The notes beneath the pieces are model-generated. The model did no database searches and was not told where the DNA came from. It was given only the letters and a program-made list of their open reading frames with translations. From a virus: a DNA stretch of 35,192 nucleotides. The stretch is from IMG/VR virus record IMGVR_UViG_3300025711_000264, positions 1 through 35,192 of that record; one strand, 5' to 3'. Shown here piece after piece: positions 1 through 26,209 of the stretch. Numbering within the stretch: the first letter of the stretch is position 1; each line of letters starts with the position of its first letter. The translations under genes were made by a program, and so were the position numbers.

Positions 1-1365
1 ATGAGCGCCTCAAAAACATTTAATAGCAAATTCTCCAAGCGCAACCTATCAAAGACATATCTAGAACGCATCAAAAATTCCGGCGCCATCGGAATTGACA
101 GGGTTCGCCCGATCAATCTTGAAAAATCACTAAAGTCCGAAGTTGAATTTATATCTGACAAAGTCAAGGAAGGATCTTACAAGTTCACCCCTTACAAAGA
201 AAAGCTAATCCTAAAAGGGGCTAATTCCTTTCCGAGACAAATATCAATACCTACAGCTCGAGACCGCATAGTACTTCGTGCGCTTTGCGACTGTCTGACA
301 GAAATATTTCCAGATTCAAAACTCGCCTTACCGCAAACCGTTATCGAATCGCTAAGCGAAGCTCTGTCAAGCAATAAATACTCAGAATATGCCAAAATCG
401 ACTTGCAAAGATTTTACCCTTCAATACCACATGAGCTGATTGAAAAGTCCATCAAAAACAAGATACGCAAGCTAGAACTTCGTGAACTCATAAATGGAGC
501 CATCACCACTCCTACGGTTCCTGAGGCAAAAGGCGGACGAAATGCTCCCAAAAACGTTAGAGGAGTGCCGCAAGGACTCGCCATCTCCAACATCTTGGCG
601 GAAACAGCCCTGCAGTCGATTGACCACAGGTACAAAACCGACAATACGATATGGTTTAAACGTTACGTAGATGACATTCTGATTTTGACCGCAAAAGGTC
701 AAGCAACAAAAGTCGCAACCCAACTAATTAGTGACCTTAGACAACTTGGTCTGTCACCACACGCCATCGAACCGGGCTCCAAATCAAAAATCGACAAATT
801 GTCGGTAGCATTTGACTTCCTAGGTTACGATATAGACAAAAATGAAATAAAAATCAAAAGCTCTAGCATTTTGCGCTTCGAATCATCACTGGCGAATATT
901 CTTACAGCCTATAGACACAGGCTTGCCAGCGCAAAATCCAAAAAAGACAAGGAAAGAGCAGTCGCCTATTGCGCTTGGAAATTAAACCTTAGAATTACCG
1001 GATGCATATTGGAAGGCAAACGCTTAGGATGGGTGGCTTATTTCTCGCAAATATCAACCACCACTCAGCTACGCAACGTAAACCATACCATAGCAAAGTT
1101 AATTAATCGCGCCGGACTTACAAGCGAAATCAAACCAAAATCACTTATCAAGACATTTTACGAACTCAAACACACCGAAAAAAACGGGCACAAATATATT
1201 CCCGACTTTGACAATCTGACTATCAAGCAAAAGCGCGAAAGGTTGAAAATGTGGTTCGGGGATCTTGTCAACAAATTCTCAGATACAAAAGTCGAACGAC
1301 TCTTTATGATAAAAATCAAAAAAGCCGTGCGAGAGCTTGAAGAAGATATCGCTCAAAAATCCTGA
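1..1365 (+). CDS. Reverse transcriptase, probable phage-defence (Abi/DRT-like) cargo
   Basis: This 454-residue protein has a reverse transcriptase palm. The first catalytic aspartate is D134 in KIDLQRFYPSI, the RGVPQG motif stands near residues 187-192, and the YVDD box is Y222-V-D-D225. The roughly 160 residues after the palm form a thumb plus a helical, lysine-rich C-terminal region, with no maturase, endonuclease or integrase domain visible. The gene is clearly richer in A and T than the phage genes beside it, which suggests separate acquisition. It sits at the left edge of the prophage, convergent with the portal gene; as I recall, phiCTX carries its cytotoxin gene in this slot. Standalone RTs of this size in prophages are often anti-phage (DRT, AbiA/K/P2 groups); I cannot assign the group. 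The ATG is at the first base of the window, so an upstream start, promoter or template RNA would be unseen. Confidence 0.85.
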   Translation: MSASKTFNSKFSKRNLSKTYLERIKNSGAIGIDRVRPINLEKSLKSEVEFISDKVKEGSYKFTPYKEKLILKGANSFPRQISIPTARDRIVLRALCDCLTEIFPDSKLALPQTVIESLSEALSSNKYSEYAKIDLQRFYPSIPHELIEKSIKNKIRKLELRELINGAITTPTVPEAKGGRNAPKNVRGVPQGLAISNILAETALQSIDHRYKTDNTIWFKRYVDDILILTAKGQATKVATQLISDLRQLGLSPHAIEPGSKSKIDKLSVAFDFLGYDIDKNEIKIKSSSILRFESSLANILTAYRHRLASAKSKKDKERAVAYCAWKLNLRITGCILEGKRLGWVAYFSQISTTTQLRNVNHTIAKLINRAGLTSEIKPKSLIKTFYELKHTEKNGHKYIPDFDNLTIKQKRERLKMWFGDLVNKFSDTKVERLFMIKIKKAVRELEEDIAQKS

Positions 1366-1576
1366 TACCGTGACTGGAACACAATGTCATAAATATTCCA
1401 GCGTTGCAGCAAGGTAGGCGTCCCATCGCAAAAGCCCATGCTTGCGAGTGCAGGAAGTTTCGCGAACTTCTAGCCGTGCGTGTTCGGGCCGCATGTGAAT
1501 AGTGAGGTTCTACGTTTTTTTGACGATGGGTCCCGAAGATGGGTGTTAAGTCGCATTAATTCTCATTGAACTTATC
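1366..1576. other. Hairpin-rich intergenic spacer between RT and portal gene
   Basis: No gene is seen in these 211 bases. They hold several pairing elements. TCGCAA at 1426-1431 pairs with TTGCGA at 1442-1447. GAAGTT at 1454-1459 pairs with AACTTC at 1465-1470. A long-range pair joins CCCATCG at 1422-1428 with CGATGGG at 1524-1530. A run of seven T lies at 1515-1521, and the heptamer GATGGGT is repeated at 1525-1531 and 1538-1544. The spacer could be the 3' end or terminator of the RT transcript, a structured RNA partner of the RT, or simply phage DNA downstream of Q. I do not recognise a P2-type cos sequence here. Confidence 0.4.
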
Positions 1577-2617
1577 TCAAGGTGCTGGAACCTCGTAAGG
1601 TCGAAAACGCACAACTTCCTCCCCAAGCCAATCGTTGATTTGCAACAGCCGGGCCTGCTCAGGCTCCAGCTCGTTGACTGCCCACACCTCAGCCGCATCG
1701 CGGATCGAGCCGAATCCCCCCGCGTTCTGTGGCACCACCCCCATCAATTGAGGCGGGATACGCAACATCGCCAGCTGGTCGTCGCGACTGATGTTCTTGA
1801 TCGCAGCGAAGTCATCCTTCGCGGCCACCTCACTGATCGGGATCAACTGCAGGCCGTCCTTCTTGCCACCTGGTGCATACATGAACAGGTTGCGGAAGTT
1901 GCCCGGCCCCTTGCTGTTCTTCATCGCCGTTCGCAGGTCGTTGACGAAGTCCTCATTCTGGGCCGCATCGGTCATGTACATGATGAAACCGGCATGACTG
2001 CCATTCTGGTAGTACTTGCGCCGAAACAGCGTGGCGCTCTCGTTCAACAACGCACTCTGCAGCGCCGGTAGCCACTCGGGCAGCCCGTAGATTTCCTGGC
2101 TGATATCGGCCACCCGCAGGTGGCACACACTGCCGGCCTTGAACTGATGCTCGTCCTTCCAACCGCGCACCTGGTAGTAGGTGACCAGGTCATTGCCCCG
2201 ACGCATGTACTTGGCCAGGCATGGCAGCAGGCCGATCGCCTGCCGCAGCATGTTGTCCCGCTTCTCCAGGTACAGATTGCCTGACCACCCCCAGTCCATG
2301 ACGATCTGCTCGAACGCCTGCCTGCTCAGCAGTCGGTGCGGAACGAATGTGCGAGCCAGCGCGTTGCGCTTGAAGATCAGACCCGACTGCAGGTAGACGC
2401 TCGCCTTCGACGACTTCGCCAGGCCATCCAGCGAAACCGGGGGCTCGTACCAACGTCCGTTGGACCAACACTCCAGGTAGTCGAGAATCTCCCTGCCATC
2501 GAGCACCGGTACCGGATCGCCAAAGGTGAACGCCATTGGTTGACCGCCTCCGGTCTTGACCAGGAGCTCACCTTCGGTGGCTGGCGAGGTGGTGGGCTGT
2601 TCCTGGGTGCTGTTCAT
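1577..2617 (-). CDS. Q: Phage portal protein (P2 gpQ family)
   Basis: This is the portal vertex protein through which DNA enters and leaves the capsid. The protein is 346 residues, close to P2 gpQ (344 as I recall). It shows the family pattern of a SNGRWYEPPVSL-type N-terminal segment, a central region with RRKYYQNGSHAGFI, and the C-terminal LRIPPQLMGVVPQNAGGFG segment typical of PBSX/P2 portals. The reading frame is open further upstream (to 2698), but the start at 2617 is preferred. It overlaps the terminase stop as TGATG, which implies translational coupling, and it gives the family length. The gene is transcribed leftward with P, as in P2. Confidence 0.93.
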   Translation of the reverse strand: MNSTQEQPTTSPATEGELLVKTGGGQPMAFTFGDPVPVLDGREILDYLECWSNGRWYEPPVSLDGLAKSSKASVYLQSGLIFKRNALARTFVPHRLLSRQAFEQIVMDWGWSGNLYLEKRDNMLRQAIGLLPCLAKYMRRGNDLVTYYQVRGWKDEHQFKAGSVCHLRVADISQEIYGLPEWLPALQSALLNESATLFRRKYYQNGSHAGFIMYMTDAAQNEDFVNDLRTAMKNSKGPGNFRNLFMYAPGGKKDGLQLIPISEVAAKDDFAAIKNISRDDQLAMLRIPPQLMGVVPQNAGGFGSIRDAAEVWAVNELEPEQARLLQINDWLGEEVVRFRPYEVPAP

Positions 2618-4371
2618 CAGTAGATCTCCATAATGCCGGTGTTGGCCACGGTCTGACCCTCCAGCGGCTCGTTGTGCAGTGCATGAAAGAGTGCCCACGC
2701 CAGATCAGCGTGGCCGGTGTTGTCGGTGCGTCCAGCGGTGTAGGTGAACTGCCGCCCGCCTGGGGTAACAGTCTTGCGGATGGCCATCAGCGATTGCGCC
2801 ACGTCCGTCCAACCGGCATCGAACTCCAGCCGCCCCTTGCTGATCACGTCCCAGGCCTTCATCACCAGACGGGTCTTGACCTCCGGGTTGTAGGAGAAGG
2901 TGCGCAACGCCGGGAAGAACGGACGCACCAGCTGCGCCACGGCACTGCCCAGCCCGGTCGTGTCGATCCCGATGTAGGTCACCCAATAGCGCAGCGTGAC
3001 CTGACGAATCGTCTCGGCCTGGGCGGTGAAGTCCATCCCTCGGAACTGGTGCCGCTCCAGGATCCTGAACTTTCCGCCCGGTACCAGCGGTGGCGCCACT
3101 ACGATGAGTCCGGCGGTGTCGCCCGTCTCAGCAGGGTCGTACCCCACCCAAACCTGCCGATCGGCAAAGGGTCTGGCCGCGAATGGCTTGTAGTCCTCCC
3201 AGACCGACCAGCTGTCCACCATGCAGGGCTGCAGCATGTTCAGCGGGAAGATGCTCGCGCCGTCGTCGACGAACTGGCACATCAACAGGTTCTGGAATGC
3301 CGCGGCGTCGTACTCCAGCCGCAATTCGTCGATGTCGAACAGGTCGCAGCCCCGCTCTTCCGCGTCCAGGATGGTGACAATCTGCCGCCAGATCCGGTCG
3401 TCGCAGAGCTTACCCTGCTGCAGCACGTCGTGGCTGACATCCAGTTTCAGGTGCTGGGCGCTGGGCTTGCCCTTGTTGAACCGTTCACCGGTCCAGAAGG
3501 TGTAGGCCTCATGCGCCATCGAGCTCGGCGTCGAGAAGTAGGTCCGGCGGTACAGTTTCTGCATCGCCATGCCGGACGCGACCTTGTTCAGTTCATTGAA
3601 CTTGAAGGTCCAGAAGAATTCGTCGAAGTAGAAGTTGCCGTGGTAGCCCTGGGCCGTCCTGGCGTTGGTGCCGAGGAAGTGCAGCTCGGCCCCGTTCGGC
3701 AGGATGATCGGATCACCGGTGAGCTCGACGCCTACCGTGTCCCGCGCGAACGCCTGGATGTAGGCCTTGAAGATATGCGCCTGGGCCTTGCTGGCCGACA
3801 GGAAAATCTGGTTGCGCCCGGTGGTCAACGCATCGATCAAGGCCTCGCGGGCAAAGTAGAAGGTTGCCCCGATCTGCCGGCTTTTCAGAATGGCGCGAGT
3901 GCGCTGATTGCCCGCCCGGTACCAGTCTTTCTGGTAGTCGAAGCACCCTTCTAGAAATGCCTCGACCAGCTTCTCGACCAGTTCCTCTGGGATGTCGTTG
4001 CGTTTGGGCTTACGCTTCTCCTCGGCGTTGCGCTTGGCCAGCTCAGGGTTGAGATCCGTCTCGGTGCCGCCCTCCTGGTAGCGCTGGATTCGGGCCTGAC
4101 GCTCCAGTTGCCGGTGGAGCAGGTCGATTTCCTTGAAATCCGCACCAGACTTGGGGTCCTTGAGGAGCAGCTGTACCAGGCGGGCTTCGGTAGCCGCCTG
4201 GATACGCTGCAGCGGTGTGGCCCGGTCCCATTCGTCGCGGGCCTTCCAGCTGTGAAGGGTCTTCTCCTTCTCGCCGATCAGCTCGGCGATCTCGCACACA
4301 CGGTAGCCCTGCCAATACAGGTGTTTGGCATGGCGGCGGTGATCGGTTGGCAATTCGCAGATAGCGTTCAT
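2617..4371 (-). CDS. P: Terminase large (ATPase) subunit (P2 gpP family)
   Basis: This is the DNA-packaging motor ATPase, 584 residues against about 590 in P2. Residues 20-50 form a helix-turn-helix segment (GYRVCEIAELIGE). SRQIGAT at 164-170 is the Walker A-like P-loop region and FYFDEFFW at 247-254 is the Walker B site, with D250 and E251. YDPAETGD at 411-418 begins the RNase H-like nuclease domain. The ATG at 4371 starts the leftward P-Q operon from the divergent promoter region it shares with O. It overlaps the portal start by one base. Confidence 0.94.
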   Translation of the reverse strand: MNAICELPTDHRRHAKHLYWQGYRVCEIAELIGEKEKTLHSWKARDEWDRATPLQRIQAATEARLVQLLLKDPKSGADFKEIDLLHRQLERQARIQRYQEGGTETDLNPELAKRNAEEKRKPKRNDIPEELVEKLVEAFLEGCFDYQKDWYRAGNQRTRAILKSRQIGATFYFAREALIDALTTGRNQIFLSASKAQAHIFKAYIQAFARDTVGVELTGDPIILPNGAELHFLGTNARTAQGYHGNFYFDEFFWTFKFNELNKVASGMAMQKLYRRTYFSTPSSMAHEAYTFWTGERFNKGKPSAQHLKLDVSHDVLQQGKLCDDRIWRQIVTILDAEERGCDLFDIDELRLEYDAAAFQNLLMCQFVDDGASIFPLNMLQPCMVDSWSVWEDYKPFAARPFADRQVWVGYDPAETGDTAGLIVVAPPLVPGGKFRILERHQFRGMDFTAQAETIRQVTLRYWVTYIGIDTTGLGSAVAQLVRPFFPALRTFSYNPEVKTRLVMKAWDVISKGRLEFDAGWTDVAQSLMAIRKTVTPGGRQFTYTAGRTDNTGHADLAWALFHALHNEPLEGQTVANTGIMEIY

Positions 4372-4522
4372 GCCGCAGATGCTGCCGTTCGCGCGCGCGG
4401 GGCCCTAACGGCGGGCCCTGTAGGATTCCCCGCTACAACTCCCCCGCATTGCCGCGCCATCGCGCGATGCCGACCATGCCCTCATCGCCAGGCACAACGC
4501 CACCGCAATGAGGACTCCCAGC
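4372..4522. promoter_or_regulatory. Divergent late promoter region between P and O with Ogr-type dyad
   Basis: This 151-base gap separates leftward P from rightward O and holds no gene. TGTAGGATTCCCCGCTACA at 4419-4437 is a TGTA-N11-TACA dyad. The same pattern recurs before V and before the sheath gene in this window. P2-family late promoters carry a dyad of the TGT-N-ACA type bound by the zinc-finger activator Ogr near -55. The centre at 4428 would put a rightward start near 4483, ahead of the O ribosome binding site. The -10 elements are not obvious, and a second site for the leftward promoter was not found. Confidence 0.6.
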
Positions 4523-5377
4523 ATGGCCGGCAAGACCGACACTCCAGCCAAGAAGTACCGCTCCAAATGGACCCGAATCGCCGTTGAAGGCGCCACCACC
4601 GACGGACGCAACATCGAGCGCAGCTGGATCGAGGACATGGCCAGCACCTACAGCCCCAACACCTACGGCGCCCGGATCAACTGCGAGCACATCAAGGGCT
4701 ACTGGCCCGGTGGCGAGTTTGGTGCCTATGGCGACGTCCTGGCGCTGAAGGCTGAAGAAGTCGAAATTGCCGGCGTCAAGAAGCTGGCCCTGTTCGGTCA
4801 ACTCCAACCCAACGATGCCCTGCTCGCCCTGAACAAGGCCGGCCAGAAGATCTACACCTCGATCGAAGTTCGACCGAAGTTCGCCGACAGCGGCAAGGCC
4901 TACCTGGTCGGCCTCGCCATCACCGACACCCCGGCCAGCCTCGGTACCGAGGCGCTGTCCTTCAGTGCGCAGCACGGCACCCTGACCAGCCGCAAACAGG
5001 ACAAGGACAACTTATTCACCGCAGCCGAAGAAACCACACTGGAATTCGAAGAGTTCTCCGACGCCTCCAGTATGTTCACTGCGCTGAAAGAAAAAGTCGG
5101 CGAGCTGCTCGGCAAGACCAAGGACAAAGAAGGTAAGGACGCTGCCAGTTTCGCCGAATTGGGCGAGCTGATCGAATGTCTGGCCAACCATGGCAGCCAG
5201 CAGGCCGAAGCCTTCACCGCTGAACAGAAAGCCCGCCAGGAACTGCAAACCCGTTTTGAGCAGCTCGAATCCAAGTTCAGCGACCTGGTCAAGCGCCTGG
5301 GTGACACCGAAGACCACAGCCAGACGCCACGACCGCCGGCATCGGGCGGCAATGGTGCCCTGCTGTCTTCCTTCTAA
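4523..5377 (+). CDS. O: Capsid scaffolding protein / prohead protease (P2 gpO family)
   Basis: The protein directs procapsid assembly and then cleaves capsid proteins and itself. It has 284 residues, the length of P2 gpO. The protease domain is N-terminal. Residues placed like the P2 catalytic triad are D27 (TTDGRN), H56 (NCEHIKG) and S113 (YTSIE). The C-terminal third (about 190-284) is charged and helical (scaffold part). The frame is open to 4508, but the ATG at 4523 is preferred: GAGG lies nine bases upstream and MAGKTDTPAKKYRSKW aligns with the family N-terminus. It is the first gene of the rightward O-N-M-L transcript. Confidence 0.92.
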   Translation: MAGKTDTPAKKYRSKWTRIAVEGATTDGRNIERSWIEDMASTYSPNTYGARINCEHIKGYWPGGEFGAYGDVLALKAEEVEIAGVKKLALFGQLQPNDALLALNKAGQKIYTSIEVRPKFADSGKAYLVGLAITDTPASLGTEALSFSAQHGTLTSRKQDKDNLFTAAEETTLEFEEFSDASSMFTALKEKVGELLGKTKDKEGKDAASFAELGELIECLANHGSQQAEAFTAEQKARQELQTRFEQLESKFSDLVKRLGDTEDHSQTPRPPASGGNGALLSSF

Positions 5378-5407
5378 CCCGCCCGACCGATCACCGGAGA
5401 ATCACCC

Positions 5408-6415
5408 ATGCGTAACGAAACCCGACTCGTCTACAACGGCCTGCTGGCCCACATCGCCAAGCTGAACAGCGTGCCCAATGCTGCCGAGAGCTTCAGTGTT
5501 ACCCCGTCCGTCCAGCAAGTACTGGAGACAGCTATTCAGGAGTCCAGCGACTTCCTCAAGCGCATCAACATCATCGGCGTCAACGACCAGGAGGGCGAAG
5601 CCATTGCCCTGGGTGTTAATGGCCCGACCGCCAGCCGCACCAACACCGCCGGCGGCAACCGCCGCAATCCGGCAAACGTGGCCAACCTGAAAAAGGACAC
5701 CTACAGCTGCAAGAAGACCGACTTCGACACAGCCTTCCCCTATCAACTGCTGGATGCCTGGGCCAAGTTCCCCGACTTCCAGGTGCGCCTTGCCAACGCC
5801 ATCGCTCAGCGCCAGGGTCTCGATCGCCTCATGATCGGCTTCAACGGCATCAGCGCCGCACCGGTCACCGACCGTGCCACCAACCAGTTGCTGCAGGATG
5901 TAAACGTCGGTTGGCTGCAGAAGATCCGCATCGCTGCCCCGGAACGCGTACTCGACGAAGGCGCTACCCCGGGCAAGGTCACCGTGGGCGCCACCGGCGA
6001 CTACAAGACTCTTGACGGTCTGGTCTTCGATGCCGTGCAGATGCTGGATCCGTGGCACCGCAAGCGCCCTGACCTGGTGGTCATCGTCGACCGCGCGTTA
6101 CTGCATGAAAAGCAACTGGCAGCCGTGGAAAAAGGGGCGGCCTCCAACCAGGAAGAAAACGCTGCAGACGAAGTCGTCACCAAGGGACGCCTGGGTGGCC
6201 TGAAAATCGAAGACGCCCCGTTCTTCATCGAGGGCGGCGTTCTGGTCACCACCCTGGCCAACCTCGCCATCTACTGGCAGGAAAGCGCGCGCCGCCGTCA
6301 CCTGAAAGACGAGCCGGAATACGACCGCATTGCCGACTACCAGTCCTCCAACGACGCCTACGTCATCGAAGACCTCGGCCTGGTCGCCTTGGTCGAAAAC
6401 ATCGAGCGGGTGTAA
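5408..6415 (+). CDS. N: Major capsid protein (P2 gpN family)
   Basis: This is the main shell protein of the icosahedral head, 335 residues (P2 gpN about 357). The N-terminus MRNETRLVYNGLLAHIAKLN and the segment VSRTNTAGG-like TASRTNTAGGNRRNP are characteristic of the P2 capsid family. In P2 this precursor is trimmed at its N-terminus by gpO. The gene lies 30 bases after O with a GGAG ribosome binding site, and is followed immediately by the small terminase gene. Gene order O-N-M-L supports the assignment. Confidence 0.93.
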   Translation: MRNETRLVYNGLLAHIAKLNSVPNAAESFSVTPSVQQVLETAIQESSDFLKRINIIGVNDQEGEAIALGVNGPTASRTNTAGGNRRNPANVANLKKDTYSCKKTDFDTAFPYQLLDAWAKFPDFQVRLANAIAQRQGLDRLMIGFNGISAAPVTDRATNQLLQDVNVGWLQKIRIAAPERVLDEGATPGKVTVGATGDYKTLDGLVFDAVQMLDPWHRKRPDLVVIVDRALLHEKQLAAVEKGAASNQEENAADEVVTKGRLGGLKIEDAPFFIEGGVLVTTLANLAIYWQESARRRHLKDEPEYDRIADYQSSNDAYVIEDLGLVALVENIERV

Positions 6416-6418
6416 GCC

Positions 6419-7120
6419 ATGGCCCTGACCCTTGCCCAACGCAACCAGCTGCGCAAGCGCGCAGCCCAGGAGGCGGCAGCCGTCGCCCCTGCCGCCCTGA
6501 TGGAAGGCGCCACCGGCTATGAAGTGATGCTCGCCGCACTGCAGCAGGATCAGTTCCGCCTGAAGCAGGTGCAATCCCAGGAGGGCAAGGCACAGCTCAA
6601 GGTCGAGATGCTGCCGGCATACGTGCCCTACGTGGACGGCGTGCTCTCGGCAGGCCAAGGCGCCCAGGACGACGTGCTCACCACCCTGATGGTCTGGCGC
6701 TTCGACGCGGGCGACTTCGGCGGCGGATTGCATATCGCTGAATACGTGCTGCGCCACGGGCTGAAGATGCCGGACCGTTTCAACCGCACTACCGGCTGCC
6801 TGGTGGCAGAGGAAGTGGCGACAGCGGCGCTCAAGGCCCAAAAGGCTGGAAGCACCTTCGCCCTGGACATCCTCACCACCACTGCGGTGCTGACTGACGA
6901 CCAGGACATGCCGGACGAGGTCCGCGCCAAGCTGACTCTGGCCCTTGGCCGCGCCACCCTGGAAGGCATCACCGACGAAAACCCTGGGCAGCCTGGCCAG
7001 TTGCAAGCAGGCATCGAACTGCTCAAGCGCGCCATCGAGCTGCACAGCAGCTGCGGCGGCAAGAAAGACCTGGAGCGCGCCGAGCGCCTCCTCAAGAAAC
7101 ACGCTGGTCCGACCAGCTAA
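6419..7120 (+). CDS. M: Terminase endonuclease (small) subunit (P2 gpM family)
   Basis: In P2, gpM works with the ATPase gpP to recognise and cut cos during packaging. The protein has 233 residues against about 247 in P2. It is mostly helical, with a hydrophilic N-terminus (LAQRNQLRKRAAQEAAA) and a C-terminal segment (ADEGITDENPGQPGQLQAGIELLKRAI-type) typical of the family. The ATG lies three bases after the capsid stop, so translation is probably coupled. The assignment rests on family pattern, length and gene order. Confidence 0.88.
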   Translation: MALTLAQRNQLRKRAAQEAAAVAPAALMEGATGYEVMLAALQQDQFRLKQVQSQEGKAQLKVEMLPAYVPYVDGVLSAGQGAQDDVLTTLMVWRFDAGDFGGGLHIAEYVLRHGLKMPDRFNRTTGCLVAEEVATAALKAQKAGSTFALDILTTTAVLTDDQDMPDEVRAKLTLALGRATLEGITDENPGQPGQLQAGIELLKRAIELHSSCGGKKDLERAERLLKKHAGPTS

Positions 7121-7223
7121 CCGAGCGTCCCCACGCACCCGGCGGCTCGGGGCGGATCAGCAGGCTTACTCCTTGGCTCAGCTGTGAAGCCCCGACCACC
7201 GCCGACCTATTCGAGCGACAAGC

Positions 7224-8118: not shown

Positions 8119-8472
8119 ATGGCTGATCCGACTTCCAGCTCCATCACCGGCCTGCTGATGGGCCTTGGCCTGGCCACCGCCGTGCCTCAAATCGATGGCG
8201 AGGCGCTGTTCGGCGCCCTCCTCGGCGCCTGGCTGGTGACCAGCATCAAACGCGATCTCAAGGCCTGGCAGCGGCTAGGTTCGCTGCTGCTCTCGGCCGG
8301 CGTGGGCTACCTGTTCGCGCCGGTGGCCCTGAAGATCGCGCCGATTATCAACAGCGGCGGCGCCGCGTTCGCCTGCGCCCTGGTCGTGATCCCGATCAGC
8401 ATCAAGGCCATGCTCTGGGTCGAGCAGGCCGATCTGTTCGACATCCTGCGCCGCATCAGAGGGGGGAGCTGA
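8119..8472 (+). CDS. Putative holin (first small membrane protein of the lysis cassette)
   Basis: This 117-residue protein has about three hydrophobic segments: near 28-45 (LFGALLGAWLVTSI), 55-73 (LGSLLLSAGVGYLF) and 82-98 (AAFACALVVIPISI). The ends and loops are charged. Size, membrane character and position upstream of the muramidase fit a holin, the inner-membrane pore former that times lysis. The ribosome binding site is AAGGA upstream of 8119. A second small membrane protein follows at once, so one of the two may be an antiholin (the LysA-like role). The sequence alone does not decide which. Confidence 0.7.
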   Translation: MADPTSSSITGLLMGLGLATAVPQIDGEALFGALLGAWLVTSIKRDLKAWQRLGSLLLSAGVGYLFAPVALKIAPIINSGGAAFACALVVIPISIKAMLWVEQADLFDILRRIRGGS

Positions 8473-8473
8473 G

Positions 8474-8752
8474 ATGTCCATTGTCGCCCTGGTCATTCCG
8501 CTGATCACCGCCAGCGCCTACTTGTTTGGCGCCCTGCGGTTGGCCTGCTACAGCCGAGGCAATGCCCGCTACCGGCGCGGCATCTCTCTGCTGGCCAGCC
8601 TGTTCGGCGCCGCGCTGTGCATGAGCGGCCTTGAGCTGCTGCTGTACCGCCCACCGGTAAGCCTCTGGCAGGCCGTGACCGCCGTACTGCTCTGCACCCT
8701 GATTTATCGATCACGCGGCAATGTCGCCGCCCTGCTGAGGCCAAGCGTATGA
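8474..8752 (+). CDS. Phage holin family protein (second small membrane protein)
   Basis: This 92-residue protein has three clear hydrophobic segments: about 4-26, 35-57 and 62-79. They are separated by basic loops (YSRGNARYRRG), giving the holin-like pattern of a short polytopic membrane protein. It begins one base after the previous stop and ends overlapping the endolysin start (ATGA). It is the holin or the antiholin of the lysis cassette, paired with the preceding gene. Confidence 0.75.
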   Translation: MSIVALVIPLITASAYLFGALRLACYSRGNARYRRGISLLASLFGAALCMSGLELLLYRPPVSLWQAVTAVLLCTLIYRSRGNVAALLRPSV

Positions 8753-9594
8753 CCCTCACCCTGCGCCACGGCGACCGTGGCCAAACCGTCAGCCAACTGC
8801 AAAAGCAGCTCAACCAGGCCGGTGCCAAGCCTGCGCTGGTCGTCGACGCCGACTTCGGCGACGCCACGGAAAAGGCGGTGCGCGCCTTCCAGGCCAAAGT
8901 CGGCCTGGTCAACGACGGCATTGCCGGCAGCAAGACCCTGGCGGCCCTGACCGGTGCCGATTGCCGCCTGCTGCTGGGCAACGCCACCCTGGCGGCGGGC
9001 GCCGAGCGCCTGGGCGTCGAGCTGGCCTCGATCTATGCCGTCAACGAGCTAGAGAGCCACGGCCAAGGCTTCCTGGCCAACGGCAAGCCGAAAATCCTGT
9101 ACGAGCGGCATGTCATGTACCAGCGCTTGGCGATGCCACGCAACGAGGGTGACGACGTCGTCGAGCTGCAGCGCCATGCCGATGAACTGGCCACCGCCTA
9201 CCCGCAACTGGTCAACCCCCGCCCGGGTGGCTACATCGGCGGTACCGGCGAGCACCAGCGCCTGGCCCAGGCCCGTATGCTCGATGCCGACCGAGCCGCC
9301 GAGTCTGCGAGCTGGGGGGCTTTCCAGATCATGGGCTACCACTGGCCGCGTCTGGGCTATGCAAGCCTGGCTGACTTCGTCACCCGGATGCACCAGGACG
9401 AACGCGAACACTTCGAAGCCTTCGTCCGCTTCATTGAGTCGGATCCGGCGTTGCACAAGGCGCTCAAGGGCAAGAAGTGGGCGCAGTTCGCCAAGCTCTA
9501 CAACGGCCCGGCCTACGCCAAGAACCTCTACGACGTGAAGCTTGAACGCGCCTACGAACGGCACGCCACCTGCGGCTGCACCCTCGCCGCGTAA
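8749..9594 (+). CDS. Endolysin: N-acetylmuramidase with peptidoglycan-binding domain
   Basis: The protein (281 residues) cleaves cell-wall peptidoglycan at lysis. An N-terminal peptidoglycan-binding domain spans about residues 6-68 (GDRGQTVSQLQKQL to DGIAGSKTLAAL). A DUF3380-type N-acetylmuramidase domain follows to the C-terminus. E102 in NELESHG is the probable catalytic glutamate, and KILYERH and the SWGAFQIMGYHW segment are family hallmarks. No signal peptide is seen, so it should need the holin for export. It replaces the unrelated P2 gpK endolysin. Confidence 0.92.
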   Translation: MTLTLRHGDRGQTVSQLQKQLNQAGAKPALVVDADFGDATEKAVRAFQAKVGLVNDGIAGSKTLAALTGADCRLLLGNATLAAGAERLGVELASIYAVNELESHGQGFLANGKPKILYERHVMYQRLAMPRNEGDDVVELQRHADELATAYPQLVNPRPGGYIGGTGEHQRLAQARMLDADRAAESASWGAFQIMGYHWPRLGYASLADFVTRMHQDEREHFEAFVRFIESDPALHKALKGKKWAQFAKLYNGPAYAKNLYDVKLERAYERHATCGCTLAA

Positions 9595-9621: not shown

Positions 9622-9828
9622 ATGATCGACATTGCCCAGATCCGCAAGCACAGCCCCCAAGATGGTGACGTCTTCGTTTTGCCCGAGGGTACCGACCACC
9701 AGGACGCCCAGGCCTTCGCCGAGGCCTTGCATGTGGCGTGCCCGGGCGTGAAGTGCCTGGTACTCACTACCGATGTTCAGCGCCTGGATGTCGCCGCGAT
9801 GAACGCCGCCGGCTGGTACCGGCCGTGA
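9622..9828 (+). CDS. Small unknown protein in the lysis cassette
   Basis: This is a 68-residue acidic protein with no recognised domain, membrane segment or signal peptide. It lies between the muramidase and Rz, has a ribosome binding site (GGAG, upstream of 9622), and its TGA overlaps the GTG start of the Rz gene. It is probably real because the frame is sealed into a coupled chain. Function unknown. Confidence 0.65.
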   Translation: MIDIAQIRKHSPQDGDVFVLPEGTDHQDAQAFAEALHVACPGVKCLVLTTDVQRLDVAAMNAAGWYRP

Positions 9829-10268
9829 TCGATCTGCGGCAGGCCGGATTGACTGTAGCGGTGGTAGCTGCGCTGGCCCTGCTGTTCTGGGGCCAGCATC
9901 AGCGCCTTGAAGTGGAAAAGGCCAAGTCCGCCAACGCCGTAGAGCGCCTGCAGACAATCCAGGAGCGCAGCGATCGCCAGACCGCCACCATCGTTCGCCT
10001 CGACGCCGAGGCGAAGGCCGAACGCGCCGCCCAGACCGCCCTGCGGACCACCCAGAACCAACTGCGCCAGAACCTGGCCGACAGCCTCAACCAGATTCAG
10101 GAGCTCGAACATGAGAACGATGAACTTCGCGATTGGTCCCGCCAGCCTCTGCCTGCTGTTGCTCGCCGGTTGCGCGAGCGCCCCGCCATCACCGGCGCCG
10201 CAGATTATCGTGACTGGCTGTCCCGCCGTCGTGCCCTGCAGCCTGCCACCGGCGGCACCGATCGGTAA
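9825..10268 (+). CDS. lysB: Rz-like inner-membrane spanin (LysB)
   Basis: This is the inner-membrane spanin subunit, about 147 residues (P2 LysB is about 141). It has one N-terminal membrane anchor (about residues 7-24, LTVAVVAALALLF) and a long coiled-coil periplasmic part rich in Q, E and R. It pairs with the lipoprotein encoded in the overlapping frame to fuse inner and outer membranes at the last lysis step. The frame is open upstream, but the GTG at 9825 overlaps the previous stop and puts the membrane anchor at the N-terminus. Confidence 0.85.
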   Translation: MIDLRQAGLTVAVVAALALLFWGQHQRLEVEKAKSANAVERLQTIQERSDRQTATIVRLDAEAKAERAAQTALRTTQNQLRQNLADSLNQIQELEHENDELRDWSRQPLPAVARRLRERPAITGAADYRDWLSRRRALQPATGGTDR

Positions 10269-10374
10269 CGGCGAGTTGCTGCGCGATGCCGAAGAGGTGG
10301 AAGCCGCCTGGGCTGACTGCGCCGCCCAGGTCGATACGGTGTACCAGGCGCAACAGAAGGCCCCTCGTCCATGA
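10111..10374 (+). CDS. lysC: Rz1-like outer-membrane lipoprotein spanin (LysC), nested in Rz
   Basis: This 87-residue protein begins inside the Rz gene in another reading frame and runs past its end, the classic nested Rz/Rz1 arrangement. A lipoprotein signal peptide with lipobox LLAGC predicts cleavage before C21. It is followed by a proline- and serine-rich segment (ASAPPSPAPQ), as in other Rz1 proteins. The last codons overlap the start of the tail completion gene R at 10371. Confidence 0.87.
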   Translation: MRTMNFAIGPASLCLLLLAGCASAPPSPAPQIIVTGCPAVVPCSLPPAAPIGNGELLRDAEEVEAAWADCAAQVDTVYQAQQKAPRP

Positions 10375-23690: not shown

Positions 23691-25382
23691 TTATACAGCT
23701 GCCAACATTTCAGCAAGAATTGCCTGCCGCTTAAGTCTATCAGGTGATATCTCACCAAGCCCTTGGCAAATCTCTACAACCCTTGCATACGTCTCTGTTG
23801 CCTTCTGGCTGTGCTGCCCCATGACTTTAATAATCGCGTCCGCCTGCTGAAGCGCTTTTTTGGAATTGAGATTAACTTGATCCTTTCCACAAATTATCGC
23901 ACGCACCACCGGCAACATATGCCATTTCAGACGTTTCAGGTTCTGCGGAATAGTGCTATTGGAAACCAGCAGATTAAAACGATACATGGCAACACAAGAC
24001 GCATAAAAAACCGCCTCCTTAACATCATCAGCAAAGATCACATCCGTCAACTCATCATACATCTGCTTAGTATAACGAGAAGCCAGCTCAGGTCTATTGC
24101 AGAACATCGACGCAACGCACTTTGCAGTATTATGGAGGGTAAAAATTCTTGTAGCAGGAATATCCTGACCTACATACTGCCTATCACGCCGCTCTAGGTG
24201 AAGTCTACTTTCAGCCCCTTCATAAGTATTAAAATACTGCTCAACCCTCTTCACAATTGGTTTAAGAGAAAGGAACTGAGTGCCTTCAACCTTGCTCTGG
24301 CTATTTGTCGCCTTTACCAATTCTGAAAAAACGTCTTCAAGCTGAGTCTTAACCAGCTTAACGTTCACCATCACGTCATTCAATAGTTCTCTATTCTCAA
24401 AAAGAACGTTTGATGTCTGACACCCATTTACAATTTGGTAGTTTGTCAAATGCAGCGTGGTACCTTGCAGCTTTATTTCCGGACTAACAATCGTGATCCC
24501 ATTATTCAAAACAGGAAACCTACTTGCTGAGTCCGAGGCAAGCGTAGCCGCTATAGACTGGTTAACCGGATTATCCTGACCAAGGAAAGAGCGGACGTTC
24601 TCCTCGAAAACCTGTGAACGAAGATTACCATCCTCCGTCGTTAGCAAATTCGACACGAAATCCTGAGCCCTCACAACTGCAAGATATGCCTCATCAATGC
24701 CATTGATAATTGGAAGTGCTGCAATACTAAACGCAGGCAGACTTGCATTCACACTAGAATAAGTACTAACCCAAAGCCTAGTAAGCTCGTCACGATCAAT
24801 AAACTTCACGTCGATCTCATGAAACAACCCCAATCCTTCGAGCTGTACAACAAAATCCCGCAAAGCTGTTTCAAGCGCGTCTGGTTTTAGGTAAACGCCT
24901 GTTGTGATATAGCGCGCAATCAAAGATGGCTTACCATATCGAATTTTAGGAACTTCATTTAACGTAAGATCGAATATCTCTCGCGCATTAACAAGAACTG
25001 AATCCTCATTTGCATACGGAGTCTGAGAGGCAAATCTTAAAATCCCCTCCTTGAACTTTAAGAAATCACCAAGATCAAACGCCTCCGACCTTTTTGCCTG
25101 AACAAAAATTACGTCAACATCGTGATTTCTTTTCGGACCAGCAAATATGGCAGAACTATCGTCGACAGAAACCGCCACAGACTCATCAATTACAACAGCG
25201 ACGCCATCTATCCCTTCATCCCCTGGCCCTGTCGTAACATCATCAAGGTCAAATGCCGAAGCAAATCTATTTGAAAGAACACAGTAAGTAGAAAATTTTT
25301 CAAACTGAACAGATTGCTCTTCAGCATTCAACCCAAAGCTAGCAACAAAACTTTTAAGATGAGACTCTACAATCCTATGCAT
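23691..25382 (-). CDS. AIPR-family abortive infection protein
   Basis: This 563-residue protein belongs to the AIPR (abortive infection phage resistance) family. The family core is RFPVLNNGITIVSPEIKL followed by YQIVNGCQTSNVLFENR, about residues 281-328. The N-terminal part has a PD-(D/E)XK-like nuclease pattern: G57-I-D59-G60 followed by VIFVQAK with Q95 and K97. It is clearly more AT-rich than the phage genes, a sign of transfer. It starts 35 bases after the membrane protein in the leftward repressor block, with a GGGGTG ribosome binding site. Likely role: anti-phage defence in the lysogen, perhaps by nucleic acid cleavage. Confidence 0.85.
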   Translation of the reverse strand: MHRIVESHLKSFVASFGLNAEEQSVQFEKFSTYCVLSNRFASAFDLDDVTTGPGDEGIDGVAVVIDESVAVSVDDSSAIFAGPKRNHDVDVIFVQAKRSEAFDLGDFLKFKEGILRFASQTPYANEDSVLVNAREIFDLTLNEVPKIRYGKPSLIARYITTGVYLKPDALETALRDFVVQLEGLGLFHEIDVKFIDRDELTRLWVSTYSSVNASLPAFSIAALPIINGIDEAYLAVVRAQDFVSNLLTTEDGNLRSQVFEENVRSFLGQDNPVNQSIAATLASDSASRFPVLNNGITIVSPEIKLQGTTLHLTNYQIVNGCQTSNVLFENRELLNDVMVNVKLVKTQLEDVFSELVKATNSQSKVEGTQFLSLKPIVKRVEQYFNTYEGAESRLHLERRDRQYVGQDIPATRIFTLHNTAKCVASMFCNRPELASRYTKQMYDELTDVIFADDVKEAVFYASCVAMYRFNLLVSNSTIPQNLKRLKWHMLPVVRAIICGKDQVNLNSKKALQQADAIIKVMGQHSQKATETYARVVEICQGLGEISPDRLKRQAILAEMLAAV

Positions 25383-25417: not shown

Positions 25418-26209
25418 TTAAATTGCGCGTAGAGGCCGGAGATTCAGGTACATACCACTCTCCCCCCATCCCTCTAGAGATCCATCTTTTTGGAGAATAT
25501 AGTATTCACCAAATTTGTTATTAGGAATCTCAAGACGCAAACCACCTTCCGGCATCAACTTTGCCGCATAGCCTTTGGTGCTTCGGCCACCGCTCGCAAA
25601 CAAGGAATCCATGAAGTAATTGCCATCTTTCTTGTAGAGGACCATCACATGGCCCAGAGCTCCGTCGCGCAGCCAACTGCCAACCTGCTCCGTGTAATCT
25701 GAGAGGTCCAGAGCAATTAGCGTTTGGTAGTCAGAGTGGCTCAAGCCGATCAGGTTACTCTTATATTCGGGCTCAAAGCTGACATTCGCCCAGAAGCTGG
25801 TGTAAGTTTGACCTTCAACACGGAAACCGATAAATGTCTTCTCTGCCTTGGCATCAGAATCATCACGGATCGCCTTGGACAGTTCAGCCAGTTCGGAATC
25901 GGTCAAGCGATGAGTCAACATTACCTCGACCTTGCGTGGTCGGCCTTCTCGGAAGTCATCTTTCACGATCGTGTACTTGATGGCGGGCTTTGCTGGCTGT
26001 TCGCTTTGCACTGCCTTTTGTGGCTTCGCCTCGATAATACCCATCGATACGGCAACGCCAGCGACCAACAAGCTTGCCATCCACCCAGCGGCACATCCCA
26101 GAACATGGCGGACTAGGAAACCCCGACCACTCTTGCGCATCTGTTTCACAAGCCACCACCAGACGCCGATGAACACCACCAGGGCAACTATCGCTACAAC
26201 TCCATCCAT
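25418..26209 (-). CDS. Unknown two-helix membrane protein with a large C-terminal domain
   Basis: This is a 263-residue protein. Hydrophobic segments lie at about 5-22 (AIVALVVFIGVWWWLV) and 36-58 (LGCAAGWMASLLVAGVAVSM), with a basic loop between them (KQMRKSGRGFLVRH). By the positive-inside rule, the ~200-residue C-terminal domain would face the periplasm. That domain is soluble and strand-rich, and I do not recognise it. A GAGGA ribosome binding site precedes the ATG. It lies between the repressor and the AIPR gene, so it is probably lysogen-expressed. A superinfection-exclusion role is possible but only inferred. Confidence 0.72.
   Translation of the reverse strand: MDGVVAIVALVVFIGVWWWLVKQMRKSGRGFLVRHVLGCAAGWMASLLVAGVAVSMGIIEAKPQKAVQSEQPAKPAIKYTIVKDDFREGRPRKVEVMLTHRLTDSELAELSKAIRDDSDAKAEKTFIGFRVEGQTYTSFWANVSFEPEYKSNLIGLSHSDYQTLIALDLSDYTEQVGSWLRDGALGHVMVLYKKDGNYFMDSLFASGGRSTKGYAAKLMPEGGLRLEIPNNKFGEYYILQKDGSLEGWGESGMYLNLRPLRAI

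Follow-up and report, generated by a model that had tools for sequence, protein, structure and literature searches.

DRT10 is a tripartite defence system made up of a non-coding RNA (ncRNA), a SLATT membrane protein and a reverse transcriptase (RT), and it makes protein-primed, telomerase-like tandem-repeat cDNA from the small RNA (PMC12632851). Its RT is that of the family UG17, already listed in classification studies of RTs (PMC8934634) and identified with DRT10 in 2025 (PMC12632851). The published primers are the C-terminal Ser456 in Eco3-type systems and a tyrosine in Eco1 (PMC12632851). Telomerase likewise adds repeats from a short template that includes an alignment segment, and kinship of the two is a claim of the cited preprint (PMC12632851); DRT10 differs in being protein-primed and in having no action on chromosome ends. 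DRT9 resembles DRT10 in its Class 2 UG RT and its ncRNA-templated, protein-primed repetitive synthesis, but produces a poly-dA homopolymer from a poly-U template (PMC12632851). In E. coli P2-like phages, diverse defence systems are found in a cos-proximal hotspot between gpA and gpQ, where P2 itself has old and tin (PMC9122126).

The locus considered here lies at the start of the window, by which is meant the whole 35,192 nucleotides of the virus record IMGVR_UViG_3300025711_000264. An open reading frame at 1–1365 (+), running from ATG to TGA, encodes an RT of 454 amino acids and adjoins the portal gene of a phiCTX/P2-like Pseudomonas prophage. It is highly probable that this RT belongs to a DRT10 system that a phiCTX-like prophage has as cargo in its cos-proximal hotspot, with the SLATT gene and the ncRNA lying upstream and trimmed off. 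Homology to tested E. coli systems suggests that the window's system would serve in anti-phage defence.

A preliminary description of this DNA had credited the protein with a full catalytic set, and the alignments bear this out: D134, D224 and D225 are invariant in all 28 aligned sequences, the YVDD active site is intact, and the equally invariant GVPQG motif (188–192) reads RGVPQG in the window. The extra domains of group II intron or retrotransposon RTs were said to be missing, and RVT_1 is indeed the sole Pfam domain; the Pfam search found no maturase or endonuclease domain in the 454 residues. The composition had been called AT-rich and unlike that of the phage, in agreement with a GC content of 0.42 compared to 0.60–0.64 (~61%) in the phage genes for structural proteins, primase and integrase, and a GC3 of 0.43 compared to 0.76–0.84. 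Confidence in the predicted fold is high (pLDDT 89, pTM 0.80), with pLDDT < 50 in the last three residues, which include Ser454. The nearest solved folds are those of group II intron RTs, followed by DRT9.

The same description had found no named group for the RT and had thought of an undescribed lineage. Placement in a named group is possible because the UG17 profile is far ahead of all others and UG17 has been published as DRT10. The PADLOC RT_UG17 model spans residues 1–453 of 454 with 523 bits (E 1e-157), followed by Drt3a with 112 bits; the Drt9 profile gives 63 bits. In NCBIfam the window RT reaches the cut-off of none of the Drt3a (102 bits, cut-off 200), Drt2, Drt4, retron and group II models, and no equivalog lies above its cut-off. 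With Rfam also offering no RNA family, the product of such annotation is a generic RT, as would be expected of a new lineage. An undescribed lineage is nevertheless scarcely credible, since the UG17 model covers the whole protein and the family was already classified, with its function and mechanism published in 2025 (PMC12632851). It is refuted by the UG17 profile match together with the operon shared with relatives.

A group II intron-derived or DGR RT, in place of a defence RT, would fit the nearest solved folds and a match of 1.4e-38 to TIGR04416 (NCBIfam group_II_RT_mat). That match, however, amounts to 132.9 bits, below the cut-off of 300, and the comparison with UG17 is 523 bits vs. 133. 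The protein has neither maturase nor endonuclease domain, the tree separates UG17 from group II and DGR RTs, and the conserved neighbours in relatives are SLATT and the DRT10 ncRNA rather than an intron or a DGR template repeat. The probability of such an origin is vanishingly small. In the tree, a check that the preliminary description had proposed, the window RT clusters exclusively with UG17 rows and not among group II intron or DGR RTs. Ten proteobacterial UG17 RTs, including that of the window, are joined with support of 99. A weakly supported branch (71) sets all UG17 rows apart from Drt2, Drt9, Drt3a, DGR and group II, the last label being read for seven rows from weak profile matches, open-frame sizes and clustering. 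The tree was built quickly and has several long branches (Drt9, DGR, retron-like), for which reason it serves here for the placement within UG17 and not for deeper relations. Profile scores and tree rule out an assignment to group II introns, DGRs or other DRTs. By profile score the window RT falls clearly into UG17, the RT family of DRT10. No phage record exceeded 60% identity to it in a search of phage proteins, and a search of plasmid proteins gave one relative at 61% identity.

The window RT is about 62% identical to the E. coli-type RTs of 456 residues, and its host element is a phiCTX-like Pseudomonas phage. Like Eco3DRT10 (PMC12632851), it is a UG17 RT with a serine at the very C-terminus (S454 in the window, S456 in Eco3), and in the alignment Ser454 falls opposite the Ser456 that closes the E. 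coli-type proteins. Of the 27 aligned rows other than the window, 25 end in Ser and two in Tyr, in line with the published Ser and Tyr primers. Tyr closes two distant Pseudomonas copies of the family, L017 and L018, like the published primer of Eco1; the window RT, which ends in Ser, is about 28–33% identical to them. From its position in the alignment, Ser454 is predicted to be the priming residue.

The first base of the record is the A of the RT start codon, and at the other end the record stops with the final base of a stop codon, that of the host Bax1-I gene following tRNA-Ser. Gene boundaries at both ends fit gene-based provirus trimming, we infer. The preliminary description had placed the RT, as a standalone gene, in a slot at the left edge of the phage. 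The slot holds, being the P2/phiCTX position next to the portal gene, whereas the edge is that of the record and not of the phage or the operon. For this reason the window does not establish that the RT is standalone. That appearance is probably an artefact of trimming, the record having been cut exactly between the RT and its partner genes.

Among relatives with about 58–88% identity, a SLATT gene lies directly upstream of the RT in 29 of 29 records with upstream sequence, several of these records being near-identical to one another. The SLATT gene reaches or overlaps the start of the RT gene; in Pseudomonas the overlap is 4 nucleotides, with the SLATT stop TGA overlapping the RT ATG, as in the context 'gcATGAgcgcc' of P. 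donghuensis. The first bases of the record, ATGA (1–4, +), are accordingly the expected end of a SLATT gene, given this TGA/ATG overlap in the Pseudomonas relatives. Wherever a record extends far enough upstream, the ncRNA precedes SLATT. The window itself has neither SLATT gene nor ncRNA, and both would fall outside the record. A covariance model search of the window for the DRT10 ncRNA gave nothing above chance, with filters also off for 1–3000, and the intergenic stretch from RT stop to portal stop (1366–1576) is likewise devoid of it. In Rfam, where no family fits the DRT10 RNA, the tRNA alone was matched. When viral contigs were scanned for an exact match to the window's first 33 bases, as a route to the upstream flank, none was found.

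The alternative of a true standalone UG17 RT, which has lost SLATT and ncRNA or uses another partner, so that the record shows everything, accords with the presence of the RT alone in the window. Operons of this kind do break up, as seen in one Pseudomonas genome with an orphan ncRNA but no RT or SLATT. The edges of the record, however, are gene edges on both sides, as gene-based trimming gives; SLATT is directly upstream in every close relative with upstream sequence; the ATG stands in the ATGA context of the SLATT/RT overlap; and the reading frame is intact. A solitary RT is thus very unlikely. From these comparisons a SLATT gene and a structured RNA of about 140 nucleotides very probably lie directly upstream, lost in trimming, and the description of the RT as standalone gives way to that of a gene whose partners very probably lie just outside the record. 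The window's own operon would then be complete.

The closest relative of the window RT, 88% identical, belongs to a prophage of Pseudomonas donghuensis HYS (L003), where a complete DRT10 operon fills the same portal-side slot. The ncRNA (2295–2431) is upstream of the SLATT gene, which ends at 2985; the RT occupies 2982–4346 and the portal begins at 4515. The SLATT protein matches SLATT_5 of both Pfam and NCBIfam, and RTasSLATT of PADLOC. This prophage appears to be a deletion remnant: 4515–7144 holds partial portal and terminase followed by gpD, and capsid and tail genes are missing, yet the DRT10 operon is intact. Directly upstream of the ncRNA, in the same slot, are PADLOC matches to RmrT and RmrA (170–2118). 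At a second cargo position, the one taken by AbiU in the window, lies a protein of 303 residues (8405–9316, −) that matches the retron Ec48 effector membrane protein below threshold.

Nineteen distinct ncRNAs were gathered from upstream of SLATT in relatives. They agree with the DRT10 plan of an RNA of ~137 nucleotides with a central stem and side stem-loops, and have in common a long closing stem and smaller stem-loops. In the consensus structure 97.8% of cells pair, and 13 pairs have changed on both sides, a number as high being reached in 0 of 500 shuffles. Sliding the partners lowers pairing to 46–58%; this control is partly circular in that the structure was built from the same 19 sequences, and the double changes are the stronger point. 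In an independent search with the covariance model, the ncRNA was found in 9 of 400 Pseudomonas genomes. Eight of these are the genomes with a close intact RT, and the ninth (L051) has an orphan copy without RT. This copy, at about 1501–1639 with 77.9 bits and no RT or SLATT adjoining, is probably a relic. Another Pseudomonas DRT10 operon (L056, 1440–6790), with an RT 61% identical, lies a few kb from tRNA-Ser (TGA) and Bax1-I, the same host genes that flank the right side of the window's prophage.

As in Eco3DRT10, the relatives of the window RT with SLATT directly upstream have an ncRNA of the same plan, with an A-B-A′ loop. In most relatives this arrangement is found in the loop after the last stem-loop. 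It reads TCAA-CGATAC-TCAA in P. donghuensis and TCAA-CGGTAC-TCAA in other Pseudomonas relatives. In the viral-contig relative L039 it reads CAAT-GATTC-CAAT, which predicts GAATCATTG, exactly the published Eco3 repeat (PMC12632851). The RT genes of L039 and of two further viral-contig relatives, L040 and L041, look broken, shortened or frameshifted. The mean length of A over 11 distinct loops is 3.64, compared to 2.29 ± 0.27 in shuffled loops (maximum of 2000 shuffles, 3.45); the weakest repeat, in L015, is 2 nucleotides. From its template the P. donghuensis RNA is predicted to yield (GTATCGTTGA)n cDNA, a repeat of 10 nucleotides compared to the 9 of Eco3. The repeat of the window's own system may be similar to that of its nearest relative, at 10 nucleotides. 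It is conceivable, if rather doubtful, that phage-borne Pseudomonas DRT10 forms a branch of its own, with repeats of 10–11 nucleotides on TCAA alignment segments matched to the co-carried SLATT. If so, the DNA of each system would act on its own effector alone.

The portal protein (gpQ; 1577–2698, −; Pfam Phage_portal 5.9e-13) is the conserved border of the cargo slot, and the terminase (2617–4371, −) lies beyond it. The closest named phages are Dobby, a phiCTX-like phage of the genus Citexvirus, and Sirocco. The portal is 66% identical to that of Dobby, which has different genes in the same portal-side slot. The phiCTX cytotoxin gene presumably sits in this slot as well. The gpQ side of the P2-like hotspot is present in the window and the opposite border falls outside the record. 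Highly variable cargo beside gpQ on the cos side is common to both settings; the published survey covered phages of E. coli (PMC9122126), whereas the window phage is a phiCTX-like phage of Pseudomonas. The view that the RT is of an anti-phage type and is foreign cargo in the P2/phiCTX slot, which corresponds to the published defence hotspot (PMC9122126), is upheld.

Between the gpD gene and the repressor, the phage has a second defence candidate, an AbiU/AIPR protein of 563 residues (23691–25382, −; GC 0.43; PADLOC AbiU 1.7e-108, Pfam AIPR 6e-44). A protein of 263 residues at 25418–26209 (−) has no Pfam, PADLOC or NCBIfam match; the P. donghuensis prophage has a 77% identical copy at nearly the same location (about 9737–10342).

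By analogy with the published mechanism, the RT would bind the ncRNA and begin DNA synthesis on its C-terminal serine, Ser454 in the window. It would copy A-B, a short template in the loop that follows the last stem-loop, and then release it; the new DNA end would re-anneal to the second copy, A′, downstream, and the cycle would repeat. The RT would in this way become covalently joined to its product, a long single strand of tandem-repeat DNA. This DNA is proposed to restrain the two-helix SLATT membrane effector until infection disturbs the restraint, a step that is speculative in the source paper as well (PMC12632851). The freed effector would stop the cell and shield the lysogen population from competing phages.

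The system itself is known, and the additions made here are its setting in a Pseudomonas prophage and a testable repeat for the nearest relative, in which GTATCGTTGA is the concrete sequence to seek. Gene-based provirus trimming can divide a defence system of three parts, so that a known enzyme resembles an orphan novelty. Standard annotation will keep missing this RT and its RNA, since they had no specific match in NCBIfam or Rfam. For the biology of these phages, the finding is that a temperate phage of Pseudomonas has a telomerase-like defence RT in a slot where accessory genes are swapped.
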